Assembly: GCA_029237775.1 (NCBI GenBank)
Contig: JAQZBR010000006.1
Location: 62,001-126,000 of the forward strand
Length of the DNA stretch: 64,000 nt
Direction of reading: 5' to 3'
DNA from: Bacteroidota bacterium
GTDB taxonomy: Bacteria; Bacteroidota; Bacteroidia; 2-12-FULL-35-15
In this document: positions 3,138-31,054 of the stretch, piece by piece
Numbering within the stretch: position 1 is the first letter of the stretch
Layout: each line of letters opens with the position of its first letter
Notes under the pieces: model-generated
Told to the model about the DNA's origin: nothing
What the model saw: the letters and a program-made list of their open reading frames with translations, nothing else
The model's database searches: none
Position numbers and translations under genes: made by a program

Positions 3138-3851
3138 TCAGCTTCCAAGGAATGCAACGGCTGCCCCCATGAGGATCACTACAAACTTGATAAAGTTAAA
3201 GCGATGGTTCTCCGTTGATTCGAAAAGGATTGTGGTGGAAATGTGAAGAAAAATCCCCACAACAACTGCCATGATGCGATCGAAATAAATCGAGAAGCCA
3301 CCGATCATGTTTGCCCCGATAGCATAGCTGGTAAAGCTCCCCAGCGGAGTGATGAGCGCGAATACCACCAGCCACATGATCGCCTGCGATTTGCTGATGT
3401 GCGATTGCAGCAACATGGTCATGAGCGCAATGGCAATAGGGATATTATGAAGGATGATCCCGGTTAGCAGCGACTGATGCGATTCTGTCCCGGAAGCAAG
3501 CGGCATACCTTCCAGAAAAGAGTGGATGGATAATCCGATCATCATCGCGTAGGGAAATGCGTGATGTGCGTGGTCGTGCTTATGAATGTGAATGTGTCCG
3601 TGCTCAATGCCTTCAGAGAAAAATTCAAGAAGGATCTGTGCGAAAAACCCGATCAGAATGAAGGCGCCAATGTTGGCCGTGTCGGAAGAATAGATCTCGG
3701 GGATAAGATGAAGCACACTTATGGCGAAAAGAAATGCACCGCTGAAAGAAAGAAGCAGCTTCAGGTTTTTGCTGCTGATGTTTATATAGAGTACACTTAG
3801 TCCGCTTACAATTACGCTCAGAAAAAGAAAAAGGTACATTGAATAATCCAT
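3138..3851 (-). CDS. ZIP family divalent metal transporter
   Basis: 237 residues, a usual length for prokaryotic ZIP proteins. About eight hydrophobic segments are visible. A histidine-rich loop after the third (HGHIHIHKHDHAHH, about residues 83-96) is the typical metal-binding loop. The next segment carries the signature HSFLEGMPLASG and the following one HNIPIAIAL, which hold the His/Glu metal ligands of ZIP transport helices IV and V. Probably imports zinc or another divalent ion across the inner membrane; zinc would fit with the zinc-dependent carbonic anhydrases downstream, though this is inference. Starts 19 bases after the methyltransferase stop. Confidence 0.88.
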   Translation of the reverse strand: MDYSMYLFLFLSVIVSGLSVLYINISSKNLKLLLSFSGAFLFAISVLHLIPEIYSSDTANIGAFILIGFFAQILLEFFSEGIEHGHIHIHKHDHAHHAFPYAMMIGLSIHSFLEGMPLASGTESHQSLLTGIILHNIPIAIALMTMLLQSHISKSQAIMWLVVFALITPLGSFTSYAIGANMIGGFSIYFDRIMAVVVGIFLHISTTILFESTENHRFNFIKFVVILMGAAVAFLGS

Positions 3852-3870
3852 AATAAGCTCAAGAATTTAT

Positions 3871-4611
3871 TTACTTTTTTGCTGCAATTATAAGTCTGTC
3901 TGACTTATCAATATCAAACGGGCTGAGATCATATCCGCCCCACAAATGTACTGTTTTCAAGCCGCAGAGATCAAAGTATTTTTGAAAATCAGAAAGTGTA
4001 AGTGCTTTTACCCGTTCTTCAAAATGAAACTTTTTTCCTTTATCGGTAAAATCGATCTGCTTTAAAATGTATCCGTCTTCCAGTTTTTTTCTGATCTGAA
4101 AATGTATGTCATCCCTTACCAACTCTTCAGACTCTTTGAGATTCACTTTAACTTTTTCAGCATTGAAGAAGTCGATGACAAAAACACCCTCCGGCTTTAA
4201 GCCTTTCGCAATAGCATCGATGGTGGCTGCTTCATCGCGGTCGTGCTCAAAATATCCGAAGCTTGTAAAAAGGTTAAGTATAAAATCAAAATAGTTGGTT
4301 CGGAAAAGCCTGCGCATATCATGCACATAAAAATGTAATTGTTCATTCTCAAATTCACTTGCAGATTTTATACTTTCCGGTGAAAGGTCAACACCTGTCA
4401 CATCGAAGCCATGCCTGTTAAGAAAAATAGAATGTCTTCCTTTTCCGCATGCAAGATCAAGAAAGCGGGCATGCGGAGGAGGAGCAAAAAAACTGATCAG
4501 CTTATCGATGAACAATTCAGCCTCATCATGGTTTCTGTTCTTATACAAAGTATGATAGTATGGGGAATCAAACCACGATGCAAACCATTCTTTATCTTGC
4601 TTTTCAGTCAT
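3871..4611 (-). CDS. class I SAM-dependent methyltransferase
   Basis: 246 residues. Residues about 45-72 contain the SAM-binding motif I, FLDLACGKGRHS, followed by the acidic end of strand beta-2 (VTGVDLS). Motif IV is around NLFTSFGYF and the conserved hydrophobic strand VFVIDFFNAE follows. These place it in the Methyltransf_25/11 group; the substrate cannot be told. It is the first gene of the minus-strand run that continues into the ZIP transporter. It is divergent from the SpoIIE-type phosphatase at 4689, with 77 bases between for both promoters. Confidence 0.85.
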   Translation of the reverse strand: MTEKQDKEWFASWFDSPYYHTLYKNRNHDEAELFIDKLISFFAPPPHARFLDLACGKGRHSIFLNRHGFDVTGVDLSPESIKSASEFENEQLHFYVHDMRRLFRTNYFDFILNLFTSFGYFEHDRDEAATIDAIAKGLKPEGVFVIDFFNAEKVKVNLKESEELVRDDIHFQIRKKLEDGYILKQIDFTDKGKKFHFEERVKALTLSDFQKYFDLCGLKTVHLWGGYDLSPFDIDKSDRLIIAAKK

Positions 4612-24584: not shown

Positions 24585-26147
24585 TTAGTTGATCTTAATG
24601 GTTAGTGGCGGAAGCTTAACTTCAATTCCGTCCGGCCCGACTGCTCTGATATCTTCAAAAAGGATCTTTTGATTTTTTCTCATCTGTTTGATCAGTTGAA
24701 TCATTTGTGGTGTCATCATGTTATTTGCTGAAGCATAATCAACGAAGCCTGTCGGAGTAAGCACCGACATTCTGAAGGATGTAACTTTAGGTATGATATT
24801 AAAATCAAAGTTTTCATAATACGCGCTCAGGCCTGCCTGCACGGATGCTTCACTCTTGCTCATCACTCCGCTTTCTCTTAACGATCCGTACTGTGCAGAT
24901 GGTTTTGGAATTCGCTTAACGCGAAGTGTAATTGTTCCCATGCTTCGTTTCTCCCCATCTTCCATATTGGCAAACACATTCACATCGACCTTATTACCAC
25001 CTGTAACCTTCACCTTATACTTTCCACTGCCGGCAGGTATTAGTGTTGCATTGGTAGCGGAGACGCTCAGCTTTTCATTTGGTATTCCGGGAACAGAAAC
25101 GGAAATCGGATTATCAAGCCCCTGATATACAACATTCATAGCGTCTGCAGAAACTGTGAGCGAAGGTTTAGCAACAATATATTGCGATTTAAAGGGAAAG
25201 ACCACTTCTTTACCTGTATTCGAAATAAGTTTTATGGTTCCATTGTAATCTACAATTCCTTCCTTATCGGCACGGGCCGTATACTTACCTAATCCGTTCT
25301 CGACATTTAGAGTAGTAGTCTCCCCGATTTTTATTTCAGGCTTTTTTGTTTTGCTGAAAGCTGCGATAAATACATCTGCTTTATATTCTTCACCGAGTAA
25401 AACATAATTGCTTTGCGGAACCACTTTCGCAGCAATTGTGTCAAATTTCATTACCTCTGTATCATTCTGTTTTAGCAGGTAATCAACCACAAGCGATTCG
25501 GAGCTTTTAACATCGTTCTTGAGCTTTGATAAAATAGTAAGGGAGGCGACAAGAGGCCGGTCATAAAAATTATAAAGTTCCCAGTTCTCATTTTCCTCAC
25601 TGTTAACAGGATCTTCCGTATTGATGTCCACTTTTACGGTCTTCCTGTCTTTCGGAAGAATAAACCCCGTAAGTAATTCCCTGTATTGGATCAGCTTGTT
25701 CTTTAATTCACGCGATGCCCCTTTTGAGCCATCTTCGGAATCACCGATCATAATATTGGTCGGCATATCATAACTGTCCTTGTTTTCAATATTCTGCATC
25801 TGGAGAGTATCTGCGATTGACGCCTCCACTTTTTCCGTTTTTGTGATCAGCTGTGTCTGCAGCTCGTCAATATATTTTACCAGCTTCTCGGATTCTTTTC
25901 TCGCTTCCTGTGCCTTTTTCCAGCTCGGTGTCACGAGTACCGGATCTACCGTTTTAGCAAGGTCAAATTCATTATAGAGATTTTCGTTTCTCTCTGAAAA
26001 GTTTAAGTTGGAATTTTCTAATCCTTTATTCACGATCACAAATGCATCAAGAATATCTTTCGAAACATTCAATGCAAGAAGCGCAGTTAGTACAAGGTAC
26101 ATCATGCCTATCATTTTTTGACGGGGAGTATCTTTAGCTGAAGCCAT
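24585..26147 (-). CDS. gldM: gliding motility/type IX secretion motor protein GldM
   Basis: 520 residues, the normal GldM length. It starts with the family's hallmark N-terminus (TPRQKMIGMMYLVLTALLALNVS), a single transmembrane helix that packs with GldL to form the proton-driven motor; the periplasmic domains D1-D4 follow. The C-terminal domain (about 455-520: VTSFRMSV... MMTPQMIQLI ... FEDIRAVGPDG) contacts the outer-membrane ring of GldK/GldN in known systems. Neither gldL, gldK nor gldN adjoins it here, which is unusual since these four usually form an operon. The gene upstream is a small secreted protein with its own terminator. Confidence 0.93.
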   Translation of the reverse strand: MASAKDTPRQKMIGMMYLVLTALLALNVSKDILDAFVIVNKGLENSNLNFSERNENLYNEFDLAKTVDPVLVTPSWKKAQEARKESEKLVKYIDELQTQLITKTEKVEASIADTLQMQNIENKDSYDMPTNIMIGDSEDGSKGASRELKNKLIQYRELLTGFILPKDRKTVKVDINTEDPVNSEENENWELYNFYDRPLVASLTILSKLKNDVKSSESLVVDYLLKQNDTEVMKFDTIAAKVVPQSNYVLLGEEYKADVFIAAFSKTKKPEIKIGETTTLNVENGLGKYTARADKEGIVDYNGTIKLISNTGKEVVFPFKSQYIVAKPSLTVSADAMNVVYQGLDNPISVSVPGIPNEKLSVSATNATLIPAGSGKYKVKVTGGNKVDVNVFANMEDGEKRSMGTITLRVKRIPKPSAQYGSLRESGVMSKSEASVQAGLSAYYENFDFNIIPKVTSFRMSVLTPTGFVDYASANNMMTPQMIQLIKQMRKNQKILFEDIRAVGPDGIEVKLPPLTIKIN

Positions 26148-26283: not shown

Positions 26284-26784
26284 TTATCTTTTACCCCAGC
26301 TTTTAGCATACAGGCGCAAGGTGATTGCCTGTTCTGTACTTGCAAGCTCCATTATATAATTTCCTTCTGCATCCGTCAGCTCCGTTACACTGGTGCCGTT
26401 CTCTTCTTTGTAATCGCGGCCTTTATATTTTCCGGAAGAATGCATTGTGTTCAGCTCATCTAAAATTACAGGTAAATATGCAATCGCATTCGTCAGGCCA
26501 CTTGTCTCGGTTAGATTGTATGAGCAGATCATGGCTCTGTATGTTCCTGAAGCGTCCTGCAATTGCTGAATGAAATGATCGTTACTACCTAATGTAATGG
26601 AAGGATTGAAATATTTTTTATGCTTTAAAGTGTCTTCATATTCAAGTTTACCCTGAATGCCGGTAAACTCATTCTGCGCCTCTGCGATCAGGTTCTTTAG
26701 ATCTCTCCGGAAAGCACTGGTATCTTGTGATCTTGAGAATCCGGCTAATGAGATAAATAAAAGGAAGAGTATTGTTTTTTTCAT
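26284..26784 (-). CDS. secreted protein of unknown function
   Basis: 166 residues with a signal peptide (about 1-19, cleavage near GFSRSQ). The mature part seems alpha/beta, with a helical first half (FRRDLKNLIAEAQNEF) and a C-terminal part (GNYIMELASTEQAITLRLYAKSW). Not recognised. It stands as a single gene: a strong terminator lies 24 bases downstream and another 18 bases upstream. It is not GldL (no paired membrane helices), although it precedes gldM. Confidence 0.65.
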   Translation of the reverse strand: MKKTILFLLFISLAGFSRSQDTSAFRRDLKNLIAEAQNEFTGIQGKLEYEDTLKHKKYFNPSITLGSNDHFIQQLQDASGTYRAMICSYNLTETSGLTNAIAYLPVILDELNTMHSSGKYKGRDYKEENGTSVTELTDAEGNYIMELASTEQAITLRLYAKSWGKR

Positions 26785-26801: not shown

Positions 26802-26824
26802 AAAAACACCCCGTGGCCGGGGTG
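26802..26824 (-). terminator. rho-independent terminator after the response regulator/small-ORF region
   Basis: CACCCCG / CGGGGTG (26807-26813 / 26818-26824), a G/C-rich stem followed on the minus strand by TTTTT. Confidence 0.9.
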
Positions 26825-26846
26825 CTTTCTGAAGAGTAGCAAAGTG

Positions 26847-26900
26847 TTACAGTGATGTTCCTGCAATACTGCCATACGTGTTTCTGATCTGTGTTTCCAT
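26847..26900 (-). CDS. possible 17-codon small gene
   Basis: METQIRNTYGSIAGTSL, ATG at 26900, stop at 26847. It ends 23 bases before a strong terminator and starts 146 bases after the response regulator stop. Nothing similar is recognised. It may be a real small peptide, part of a small RNA, or chance. Confidence 0.25.
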   Translation of the reverse strand: METQIRNTYGSIAGTSL

Positions 26901-26995
26901 CTTCTGAGTTTTAATGATTTGTTTGTGGGTTTACACTACAAAACTCTTAAAACCGTGATGGATACGCAATCCCTGCCACACGGTATATTCGTCTC

Positions 26996-27007
26996 CGTAC
27001 TGGTACG
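26996..27007. promoter_or_regulatory. palindrome CGTAC-TG-GTACG, possible regulator binding site
   Basis: A perfect inverted repeat with a 2-base spacer in a sequence continuing CCTACGTACCAGTACGG on the minus strand. NarL/FixJ-type regulators bind inverted half-sites with short spacers, and one such regulator is encoded 40 bases away. The assignment is inference. Confidence 0.3.
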
Positions 27008-27045
27008 TAGGTATTATTCCGGAAATTTGAAAGAAGATAATGGAA

Positions 27046-27690
27046 TCAGCCGATCAGCTTGTGTTCCATGGCAAATTTGATCAGGCCGACAACAGTTTTT
27101 GTATTGGCTTTTCTGAAGATGTTCTTCCGGTGCGTTTCAACTGTGCGTTCGCTTATAAAAAGAGCTTCACTAATCTGTGCATTGCTGTATTCTTTAGCAA
27201 TCAGCTGAATGATCTCTCTTTCCCTTTCGGTAAGATGGATCTTCTCGTCTTCCTTTTTCTGGCCGCGTTCACTCATCGCTTTCATCATCTCGGCAGAGAT
27301 CTCGTCACTGAAATACATTCCGCCTGAGGAGATTTTCACTAGAGCATTGATGAGTTCTTCTTTTCCTGTATTCTTTAAAATATAACCGGAAGCACCTGCA
27401 TCGAGGATCTCAGAGATAGTGCTTTTTTCACCGAACATGGAAAGGGCCAGGATCTTAACTTCAGGGTGTTTTTTTTTGGCAGCACGCGTGAACTCAATTC
27501 CATCCATTTCAGGCATATTGATGTCTGTTAAGATAATATCAGGCGTGCTCTTTCCAATGATTTCCAGCGCTTGTTTTGAACTTGTGGAGGTTCCTATAAT
27601 CTCAAACCCCGCCTCATTCATCAACAGCGCTTTTAGCCCGTCTATAAGCATCTGGTGATCATCTAGAATAAAGACTTTAATCTTTGCCAT
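27046..27690 (-). CDS. NarL/LuxR-family response regulator
   Basis: 214 residues. The receiver domain has acidic Asp10-Asp11, the phospho-acceptor Asp56 in LTDINMPEMDG, the Ser/Thr switch in ALSMFG, and Lys in GYILKN. The C-terminal LuxR-type helix-turn-helix (about 150-210) contains LTEREREIIQLIAKEYSNAQISEALFIS, split here by its typical ERTVETHRKNI recognition helix. It controls transcription after phosphorylation by the TPR histidine kinase encoded 32 bases upstream, its likely partner. Downstream lies a region with a palindrome, a tiny reading frame and a terminator that it might control. Confidence 0.95.
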   Translation of the reverse strand: MAKIKVFILDDHQMLIDGLKALLMNEAGFEIIGTSTSSKQALEIIGKSTPDIILTDINMPEMDGIEFTRAAKKKHPEVKILALSMFGEKSTISEILDAGASGYILKNTGKEELINALVKISSGGMYFSDEISAEMMKAMSERGQKKEDEKIHLTEREREIIQLIAKEYSNAQISEALFISERTVETHRKNIFRKANTKTVVGLIKFAMEHKLIG

Positions 27691-27722: not shown

Positions 27723-29684
27723 TTACGTGGCCAGGGACGGGATTAAATGGTTTTTGACAGGAATCTCAATATTGATGGTCGTGCCTTTTCCAGGTGAAGA
27801 ATCAAAATCAACGGTTCCATTTATAAATTCTACTCTTGAACGGATATTCTTTAATCCAATGCCTGCCGATTCCTTACCGGTGTCAAACCCCGACCCGTTA
27901 TCCTGAATGATCAGGCTGAGCTCATTTTCAAATCTGATCAGTTGGATGTTCACAACAGTGGCACCGGAATGTTTGATAATGTTATTTACCGCTTCCTGTA
28001 TGACCCTGAAAAGAATATTTTCGGTAATGCTTTCAAGCCTTTCATTCAGTCCGCTTACTTCCAGTTCTATTTTGAGTTTACCTGTGATGTTGATCCTGTT
28101 TAAGAACTCACGTACTGCAGTGCCAAGCCCTGATTTTAACAAAGCATTTGGCATCATGTTGTGCGAAACGGATCTTACTTCTTTCACTGAATCGTCAATT
28201 ATTTCCATGATATTTTTAACGATGGCCGATTGTTCCGGATCTTTCCGATCAATAAGCGATTGAAGGCTGCTGAGGTTTAACTTAGCTGCAGAGAGTTGTT
28301 GCCCGATCCCGTCATGAAGTTCCCTTGCAATTCGTGCCCTTTCATTTTCTTCTGCTTCAACAACTGCTTTTGTCCTGGCTTCCTGCTGCTGATTCCGCTC
28401 CATTTGAACAATGTTTTTTTGCTTGAGCCGATTTCTGCTGTACACCAGAAAACCGAGTACGATTAAAACAAGAATGGAAGCTAATAGAATATTTCTTTGC
28501 GTCTTTTGTTGTGATATCTCAAGGCCGCTTCGTTCAATCTCCAGATTCTTTTTGCTGATGGCAAGATCTTTTTTTTCTGATTCATATCGGGTTTGCTGCT
28601 CTGCTAACTGTTTTGCGCTCTCTTCTGAATAAATGCTGTCATTTAGCTCCGAATACTTTTCATAGTAGGCAAGCGCCTGAGGATAATCATGGAGTGATTT
28701 GTAGCTCGATGAAATGTCACGGTAAACCTTTCTTAATTTGGACCTTGACTTCAGCTCGTCTGCAAGAGTGAGAGCCTTCATGCTGTATGAAAGGGAAGTA
28801 GTGAAGTCTTTTTTTCTGTTGTATATTCCGGCAAGGTTATTATAAGTTGTGGTGAGGCCGTATTTGTCGTTTAATTCAATCCTCAACGGTAAAGCTTTGA
28901 GTTGATATTTTAATGCTTCATCCTCCTGGTGATGTTCGGAAAATATGATTCCGAGATTATTCAATGAAATAGCCAATCCATACCGGTCACCGCTTTTTTC
29001 TTTAGCTACAATCGAACGTTTGAAATAGTCGATAGATTTTTCGGGCTGTTTCAGCTCACTGTATGTCATTCCGATATTGGTGAGGGATACGCCAATACCA
29101 TATTCATCTTTGATCTCTTCACGGATTTTTAAAGAGTTCAAATGATATTTTAATGATTGCTCATACTTTTTCAGGTCAAAGTAGATCAACCCGATATTGC
29201 TCAGGGTGTTTGCCTGCCCTTTTAAATGATTGATCTCTTCAAATAATCTCAGCGAGGAGAGATAATCGGTCAGTGCTTTTTCATATTCTCCTTTGTTCCA
29301 TTCAACAAGGCCGATATTATTTAAAGTGTTTGCAATCTGTTTTTTGTTGTTGAATGCTTTACTTATCCTAAGGGATAGATCATAGTAAAACAATGCGGAA
29401 TCATATTCACCTGTTACATCATATACGATCCCAATGTTATTAAGCGCTTTGATTTCTCCTGACTTGAAATTTAATCTCCTGCTTAATGAAAGAGAATTCC
29501 TGCTGAACTTAAGTGATCTCTCCGCGTCATTTTCGCAATACCCGAAACCAAGATCATTCAGTGCGTTTATTTTGAAAGTGTCTTTCAGCTGTGGCAAGGC
29601 CTTTACAAGACTATCGTAATTTGTCTGTGTGAACAATAAAGACGGAAATAAAATAATTAAGAATATTAAGGATTGTCTCTTCAT
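27723..29684 (-). CDS. TPR-repeat sensor histidine kinase (HisKA_3 type)
   Basis: 653 residues. Signal peptide or N-terminal membrane segment (1-20), then about seven tetratricopeptide repeats of 40 residues (LNNIGLVEWNKGEYEKALTDY and similar, about 40-345), a coiled coil (355-395), a transmembrane helix (399-415), the dimerisation/phospho-acceptor box ERARIARELHDGIGQQ with His457, and a GHKL ATPase (NIIKHSGATV, DNGSGFD, GIGLKNIRSR). The sensing TPR part is predicted periplasmic. Typical partner of NarL/LuxR regulators; the regulator gene follows. The start overlaps the amidase stop as ATGA, so expression is coupled. Confidence 0.95.
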   Translation of the reverse strand: MKRQSLIFLIILFPSLLFTQTNYDSLVKALPQLKDTFKINALNDLGFGYCENDAERSLKFSRNSLSLSRRLNFKSGEIKALNNIGIVYDVTGEYDSALFYYDLSLRISKAFNNKKQIANTLNNIGLVEWNKGEYEKALTDYLSSLRLFEEINHLKGQANTLSNIGLIYFDLKKYEQSLKYHLNSLKIREEIKDEYGIGVSLTNIGMTYSELKQPEKSIDYFKRSIVAKEKSGDRYGLAISLNNLGIIFSEHHQEDEALKYQLKALPLRIELNDKYGLTTTYNNLAGIYNRKKDFTTSLSYSMKALTLADELKSRSKLRKVYRDISSSYKSLHDYPQALAYYEKYSELNDSIYSEESAKQLAEQQTRYESEKKDLAISKKNLEIERSGLEISQQKTQRNILLASILVLIVLGFLVYSRNRLKQKNIVQMERNQQQEARTKAVVEAEENERARIARELHDGIGQQLSAAKLNLSSLQSLIDRKDPEQSAIVKNIMEIIDDSVKEVRSVSHNMMPNALLKSGLGTAVREFLNRINITGKLKIELEVSGLNERLESITENILFRVIQEAVNNIIKHSGATVVNIQLIRFENELSLIIQDNGSGFDTGKESAGIGLKNIRSRVEFINGTVDFDSSPGKGTTINIEIPVKNHLIPSLAT

Positions 29685-30973
29685 TTCACTTGCATGTAAT
29701 TTAATATTCCTTGATAATAAGCCTCTGCGACCTGTTGGATACGTTCATTTTTTGTTTTGTCTGTTTCTTTATTCAGCAATTGCGATTCTTTTATATTATC
29801 CTGGTAGAGCGTTTCACCGTAAACGAGCGCGGAATGTATGTATCGTGTTAATTGCAGATTTCTGCAGTACACGCCTTCCTTTGAAGTTTTTAAGCAGGAT
29901 TCAGGAATGTATGTGGCATCATGTTCTCCTGCAACGGGCACATTTAACACTTTAGTGAATGCATCTAAGACAGATGAACTCAGCGACACCGAATTTTCAA
30001 GTTGATTGCTGATCAGCAAGCGCAAAAATTCGAATCTTTTTTCTTGACTCGACAGATCACCTTTCATAAAAGCTCCTCCCACGAATGCCATGTTCAGATC
30101 TTTCTTCGTAGGGTGTGTCCAGCCGAGGTTTGTTTCGTCAACATTAAAATGGATTATAATTGTAAAGGCAGGATGAAATTTATTGATCAGCTCTGCTCTT
30201 TTTGCAAGATCAAGATCGCGGAATAAAACCCTGAAAATATCATTGTCCTTCGCCTGTGCACTCAGAAAATATTTTTTTTGTGATGCTGAAATCTCGCCAA
30301 TCTTAAAGAGACTGTCGACTGCGTTCTTCATGTCATCTTTTTTCCATTGAGGAAATGTTTTACCAAATGCTGAAAACCCTTCCGGACGCGTCAGCATGAT
30401 TTGCGCGCCTTTGGCTTCAAGCTTTTGTTTAAGAAGCGTGGCTGTTGCATAGGTCAACATTCCTTCCGCGAGTTCTACTGAATCACTCAATCCATGTAAA
30501 GGATCTTTTTTGAACTTAAGATGTTTTTTCTCAAGGTCGCCCGTTGCAAGGTCATGTGCGATGTGTCCGGGATCGATAGCAATACTTAGTCCTGCAAGAG
30601 GTTTGTCTTCCGGTTTGTTTAAGATTGACATGTATTGTTTTTTGACAGCAATGTCCGGAATAGGAAAAGTATAAGAACGGGTTTTATAGATCTTGAAAAT
30701 TTCAGCGGGCGAATTATTCAAATCAGATTTGAAATCTCCAAGTCGGCTCCATTCAATGGCAAATTCAGGATTATTGATTTTCTTATCGTTTGCTGTCGCG
30801 AAGATCTTTATACCATACTTATCAATGCTGTAATAAGAACTTAATGCTTTTTGCTTGTCGAGATATTTTTCTGCTTTCTCGGTGTAGTATTGGATATTTG
30901 TTTCGGTTGCAGAAACCTGGGAGAATGCCGGGAATGTGGCAACAACAAACAGAAATAAGAATGCATTTTTCAT
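29681..30973 (-). CDS. secreted N-acetylmuramoyl-L-alanine amidase (Amidase_3-like)
   Basis: 430 residues from the ATG at 30973 (MKNAFLFLFVVATFPAFS, a signal peptide); an extension upstream reading MASLISLNL lacks a signal and was rejected. The C-terminal two thirds carries the zinc amidase pattern: IAIDPGHIAHD (first His), ELAEGMLTYATATLLKQKL (Glu ligand), IMLTRPEG, and FTIIIHFNVDE (second His). It should cut the lactyl-alanine amide bond in peptidoglycan stem attachment in the periplasm. It leads the operon with a TPR histidine kinase and LuxR regulator. On the minus strand TAAATTTG at 31007-31014 may be its -7 box. Confidence 0.85.
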   Translation of the reverse strand: MKNAFLFLFVVATFPAFSQVSATETNIQYYTEKAEKYLDKQKALSSYYSIDKYGIKIFATANDKKINNPEFAIEWSRLGDFKSDLNNSPAEIFKIYKTRSYTFPIPDIAVKKQYMSILNKPEDKPLAGLSIAIDPGHIAHDLATGDLEKKHLKFKKDPLHGLSDSVELAEGMLTYATATLLKQKLEAKGAQIMLTRPEGFSAFGKTFPQWKKDDMKNAVDSLFKIGEISASQKKYFLSAQAKDNDIFRVLFRDLDLAKRAELINKFHPAFTIIIHFNVDETNLGWTHPTKKDLNMAFVGGAFMKGDLSSQEKRFEFLRLLISNQLENSVSLSSSVLDAFTKVLNVPVAGEHDATYIPESCLKTSKEGVYCRNLQLTRYIHSALVYGETLYQDNIKESQLLNKETDKTKNERIQQVAEAYYQGILNYMQVK

Positions 30974-31054
30974 GAATGATGTTTGTGAGCTGGTAAGGAT
31001 CTGAATCAAATTTAATGAAATTAGGGATGCCATTTAATTTGCTAATTTTGTTTT

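Follow-up and report, generated by a model that had tools for sequence, protein, structure and literature searches.

A predicted micro-peptide gene with a conserved C-terminal tail behind a palindrome-promoter module in a LuxR-type two-component locus of Bacteroidota

The locus and its elements

The window, i.e., the whole 64,000-nucleotide stretch of Bacteroidota DNA analyzed here, carries on its minus strand a two-component system with an amidase gene in its operon. Behind the response regulator (RR) gene, a palindrome, an AAWWTACC box, a -33 element, a -7 element, a short reading frame, and a terminator follow one another in this order. The genes and elements are, from upstream to downstream:

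29681-31033, minus strand: N-acetylmuramoyl-L-alanine amidase (Amidase_3), first gene of a conserved amidase-(kinase)-RR cluster
27723-29684, minus strand: histidine kinase with TPR repeats (HisKA_3 and HATPase_c), with a 4-nt overlap with the upstream amidase gene
27046-27690, minus strand: LuxR/NarL-type RR (Response_reg and GerE), the presumed activator, with orthologs in 12 of 36 genus genomes
26994-27009, minus strand: dyad-symmetric putative operator TACGTACCAGTACGGA, the presumed RR site, with the perfect core CGTACCAGTACG at 27007-26996
26982-26989, minus strand: AATATACC, the conserved box AAWWTACC, at a constant distance from the palindrome
26967-26972, minus strand: GGATTG, -33 promoter element, exactly 20 nt before the -7 element
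26939-26946, minus strand: GAGTTTTG, -7 promoter element of the TANNTTTG type, with a predicted transcript start at about 26935
26847-26900, minus strand: candidate micro-peptide gene METQIRNTYGSIAGTSL, 17 aa, unannotated
26834-26840, minus strand: GCTACTC, preceding the terminator and common to this genome (G000), G018, G009, and a peptide-less locus in G010
26802-26829, minus strand: intrinsic terminator stem-loop of 12 pairs, closing a predicted transcript of about 140 nt
26284-26784, minus strand: 166-aa secreted protein with no assigned family, its ATG 17 nt past the terminator stem-loop

Three of these parts had been picked out by the first-pass annotation, and all of them hold on the minus strand: the perfect CGTAC-TG-GTACG palindrome (27007-26996), the 17-codon frame (26900-26847), and the G/C-rich terminator 23 bases past its stop, a distance that applies to the GC core, with the stem beginning at 17 nt. 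The promoter boxes between palindrome and frame are an addition. In the neighboring kinase, the TPR region is preceded by a signal-peptide-like start and followed by a membrane helix. 3' of the terminator, the 166-aa gene is followed by a gene for a GldM protein (24585-26147, minus strand). This GldM represents a second lineage (gldM2), with 64-78% identical copies in 5 of 13 other genomes searched (G009, G018, G010, G019, and G035), each of which also has another GldM at just 38-40% identity.

Judged from one sequence, the frame and the palindrome are unremarkable. An ATG frame of 11-25 aa turns up in about 51% of shuffled copies of the interval (P about 0.5), and the window contains 92 perfect 5+2+5 palindromes. 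The specific 12-mer CGTACCAGTACG has its sole match in the window at this place (0.03 expected at ≤1 mismatch), and two exact copies exist in the 4.08-Mb genome. The parts are considered real rather than fortuitous because they are conserved in relatives, the comparison proposed in the first-pass annotation: frame and palindrome are both kept beside the same regulator.

A promoter module that accompanies the response regulator

Copies of the interval were found in related genomes with a 321-nt DNA query and do not always adjoin the RR gene. Among the 36 genus genomes, the module lies behind the RR in 11 of the 12 orthologs, 10-140 nt past the RR stop, and about 1.4 kb further on in the twelfth (G026). 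Within the module, the spacing of palindrome, AAWWTACC box, and -7 box is constant; a -7 box of the (T/G)ANNTTTG type occupies an identical offset in 11 of 15 module copies, and most copies have GGATTG exactly 20 nt ahead of it, the A+T-rich copies of G005, G014, and G034 being those in which GGATTG was not found. Fixed internal spacing combined with a variable distance to the RR gene is as expected of a promoter with an operator. In G056, a member of another family, CGTGC..GCACG comes after the RR, both half-sites having changed in step so that the dyad is preserved. The locus shows one of the marks of a target of a LuxR/NarL-type RR, namely, a dyad-symmetric putative operator near a promoter, conserved along with the regulator. 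A separate inverted repeat, GTCATCCCGTGC...GCACGGGATGAC, sits between RR and module in G018 (L009, about 1568-1660) and resembles a mobile repeat element.

Primary-sigma promoters of Bacteroidota are built as -33 TTTG/-7 TAnnTTTG (PMC7366714). The module shares with them a TANNTTTG-type -7 box, GAGTTTTG in the window agreeing with five of the six specified bases of TAnnTTTG, and a TTG-containing -33 box; it differs in that the -7 box of the window begins with G, the -33 box reads GGATTG, and a rigidly placed upstream palindrome and AAWWTACC box are added. The promoter was not picked up by a sigma-70 scan, which covers another promoter type. TATACC, directly behind the palindrome, was considered as a -10 box and dropped, the constant GGATTG-20 nt-TANNTTTG pair appearing further downstream. 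A transcript start between 26900 and 27045, as called for in the first-pass annotation, is now predicted at about 26935, from a rigidly spaced promoter inside that interval.

A sequence-only model built from 14 modules was run on the 36 genus genomes. All matches of at least 24.5 bits fall in the 12 RR-bearing genomes and none in the other 24. Modules remote from the RR gene are present in 9 of the 12 RR-bearing genomes and in 0 of the 24 others (raw counts, kinship ignored), a co-occurrence that is partly circular, as RR-adjacent modules made up part of the training set and some of the counted copies belonged to it. The other genes behind the module specify T9SS-sorted, secreted, or outer-membrane-like proteins, including, in the window's genome, a secreted protein of 605 aa and one that bears a T9SS sorting tail; likely orthologs of these two, recognized by their opening sequence, also carry the module in G416 or G417. 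In G028, a separate module precedes the homolog of the 166-aa protein, which fits co-expression of the 166-aa gene with the peptide through readthrough in the window. Outside the genus, in G102 and G061 of family f27 (L119 and L120), a palindrome module stands ahead of a lipoprotein-like gene.

A peptide family defined by its C-terminal tail

The DNA query recovered the peptide in three further genus members as MKTQNTYGSIAGTSL (G018), MKSQNTYGSIAGTSL (G009), and MINEINYYGSIAGTSL (G028). Because these copies were found by DNA similarity and not by a peptide pattern, they allow a fair codon comparison with the window. Over the last nine codons of the four genus members, all variable positions are third positions, and not one amino acid changes. 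With six genomes, two of which (G416 and G417) were pattern found and hence bias the comparison, third positions account for 9 of the 10 variable columns and the pooled pN/pS is 0.07. The frame thus bears the coding selection that distinguishes a small protein. Its presence in only 4 of the 36 congeneric genomes indicates that most RR-bearing relatives manage without the peptide.

A strict peptide pattern applied to 84,980 species, a collection in which a few matches are possible by chance, returned five: G018, G009, and G028 together with MESNGTYGTIAGTSL and METTSTYGTIAGTSL at loci L033 and L035. The module precedes each of the five at the proper distance, and neither L033 nor L035 took part in building the module model. 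In the genomes of these two loci (G416 and G417), RR orthologs of 64-65% identity are encoded elsewhere, unlinked to the peptide. The promoter model alone, run on 295 genomes of the class, located a module in G076 (family f42) that is followed by MKNNFSFGSISGTSL. A widened pattern revealed a second copy in the window's genome, MESNMGYGSISGTSL (G000:C9:38024-37977, minus strand; locus L124/L125), with no palindrome module in front and convergent to a multicopper-oxidase-like gene. The pattern matches, the promoter-found MKNNFSFGSISGTSL, and the second copy MESNMGYGSISGTSL define a family of the form M-x(5-7)-[YF]G[ST]I[AS]GTSL-stop, 15-17 residues long and represented in six other genomes besides the two copies here. 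At L033 and L035, the peptide is flanked on one side by a Reg_prop/LytS-type kinase and on the other by MpPF26-like membrane proteins, and an ABC exporter is encoded nearby.

The 15-17 residues are mostly polar and have no hydrophobic stretch, and neither a membrane-spanning helix nor an N-terminal export signal is present in the peptide sequences. The strict pattern had no match in viral contigs, and the interval has no similarity to phage records; a viral match to a looser pattern (L127) lies out of frame within a phage gene and is coincidental. No paper containing the peptide string or describing the peptide was found in the open-access literature.

Probable activation by the response regulator and a possible role of the peptide

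We consider it probable, from comparative sequence analysis, that the locus holds an RR-activated gene for a micro-peptide. Upon activation of the kinase/RR pair, the phosphorylated RR would bind as a dimer to the palindrome, whose center lies about 67 bp before the predicted start, and would activate a promoter of the Bacteroidota housekeeping type. An mRNA of about 140 nt would be made, terminating at the stem-loop, and the 166-aa gene that follows may be expressed by partial readthrough. The first-pass annotation had suspected a regulated short transcript, peptide or small RNA, under the adjacent two-component system, and this view gains support, with control by the RR suggested by adjacency and co-occurrence.

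The palindrome might instead be the site of another regulator, with the neighboring RR there by coincidence. In favor of this, the module comes after a different sensor kinase at L033 and L035, and copies were met in families f27 and f42, outside the RR search. Adjacency in 11 of the 12 RR orthologs, joint occurrence with the RR across the 36 genomes, and the RR orthologs of G416 and G417 speak against it and make it unlikely.

Translation of the mRNA would yield a soluble peptide whose head varies and whose C-terminal tail, presumably the functional part, is conserved. Gly, Ser, and Thr abound in the tail, which is probably extended. It may dock on a protein of the same envelope/secretion pathway, so that the peptide would act as a feedback regulator in trans, a role that we advance tentatively. 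Its T-S-L-COOH end resembles a PDZ-type ligand, which is a lead only. Such feedback would follow the logic of the enterobacterial two-component-regulated small proteins MgrB, SafA, and MgtS, which are larger and membrane spanning. The likeness extends to a tiny unannotated product and a promoter apparently under RR control; in contrast, the peptide described here has 15-17 residues, no membrane helix, a conserved C-terminal tail, and no recognizable sequence relation to them.

The transcript itself could be the active molecule, as a small or dual-function RNA that works by base pairing and for which the peptide is secondary. It is indeed short and strongly terminated, and in G010 the corresponding place has a module followed by a short, terminated transcript that contains GCTACTC but codes for no peptide, which keeps the dual-function idea alive. 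However, in the genus members the conserved part of the frame varies at third codon positions only, and an internal hairpin around the stop is lost in G018, so that a purely RNA-based role is disfavored. Moreover, the peptide is retained in G416 and G417, where the 5' leader is almost absent and a shared terminator is lacking, and Rfam gave no matches at the gathering threshold. This explanation therefore appears quite unlikely. The G010 locus (L076, about 3800-4010; G010:C5:96300-96510, minus strand) reads SpoIIE-type gene, module, hairpin-rich terminated transcript, and gldM2, and its peptide-less transcript (AUGAGGCUACUCCCUCAU) is a possible small RNA where G018 and G009 have the peptide.

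A comparably improbable role is that of a leader or arrest peptide, in which ribosomes on YGSIAGTSL would control the terminator and so the downstream 166-aa gene in cis. TnaC and ErmCL are such leader peptides of attenuated operons, and the short frame, the conserved last residues, and the terminator that follows several of the copies are common features. Here, conserved residues reach the stop codon, the terminator comes 17 nt on and the gene another 17 nt on, and the module itself would drive the 166-aa homolog of G028. Contrary to those operons, no constant downstream gene without a promoter of its own was found across the peptide copies: almost every copy has a different gene behind it (166-aa protein, gldM2, FGE-like, MpPF26, or GtrA-like), and most of these genes have their own promoters. 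The MpPF26 genes have their own TATCTTAG box, and loci that lack the peptide retain a separate TATCTTTTT promoter for gldM2. A narrower version, the peptide as a gldM2 leader, was rejected, since this promoter box is kept in G035 and G019 without the peptide. The variable downstream genes, the independent gldM2 promoter, and the second copy in the window's genome, which faces a convergent gene, are the reasons for preferring a role in trans.

Peptides are also exported as signals, and the TPR-bearing kinase, or a regulator, might read this one as an autoinducer. In RRNPP systems, whose signals include Phr, PapR, and NprX, the signal peptide is bound by a TPR fold; the window shares with them a short peptide, C-terminal conservation, and a nearby TPR-bearing protein. 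Nevertheless, the peptide has no export signal, and the TPR protein is an envelope kinase that is not kept together with it; in the peptide-bearing G028, G416, and G417, amidase and RR have no kinase gene between them, which disfavors a dedicated signal for the neighboring kinase and renders the proposal very unlikely. The chance meeting of a random short frame and a random palindrome, which the single-sequence statistics would permit, is contradicted by all comparative results, already refuted by conservation, and practically negligible.

Returning to the RR-activated peptide gene, a broader proposal can be put forward as a possibility: this undescribed family may consist of trans-acting ligands, intracellular or exported, that belong to a LuxR-type two-component regulon for envelope and T9SS proteins in Bacteroidota. 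Genes this short escape standard annotation. Two independent conserved signatures, the promoter module and the C-terminal tail, make this one traceable and testable. They also supply a candidate operator and a candidate regulon, linked to T9SS-sorted and envelope proteins, for a TPR-kinase/LuxR-type system that carries an amidase in its operon.
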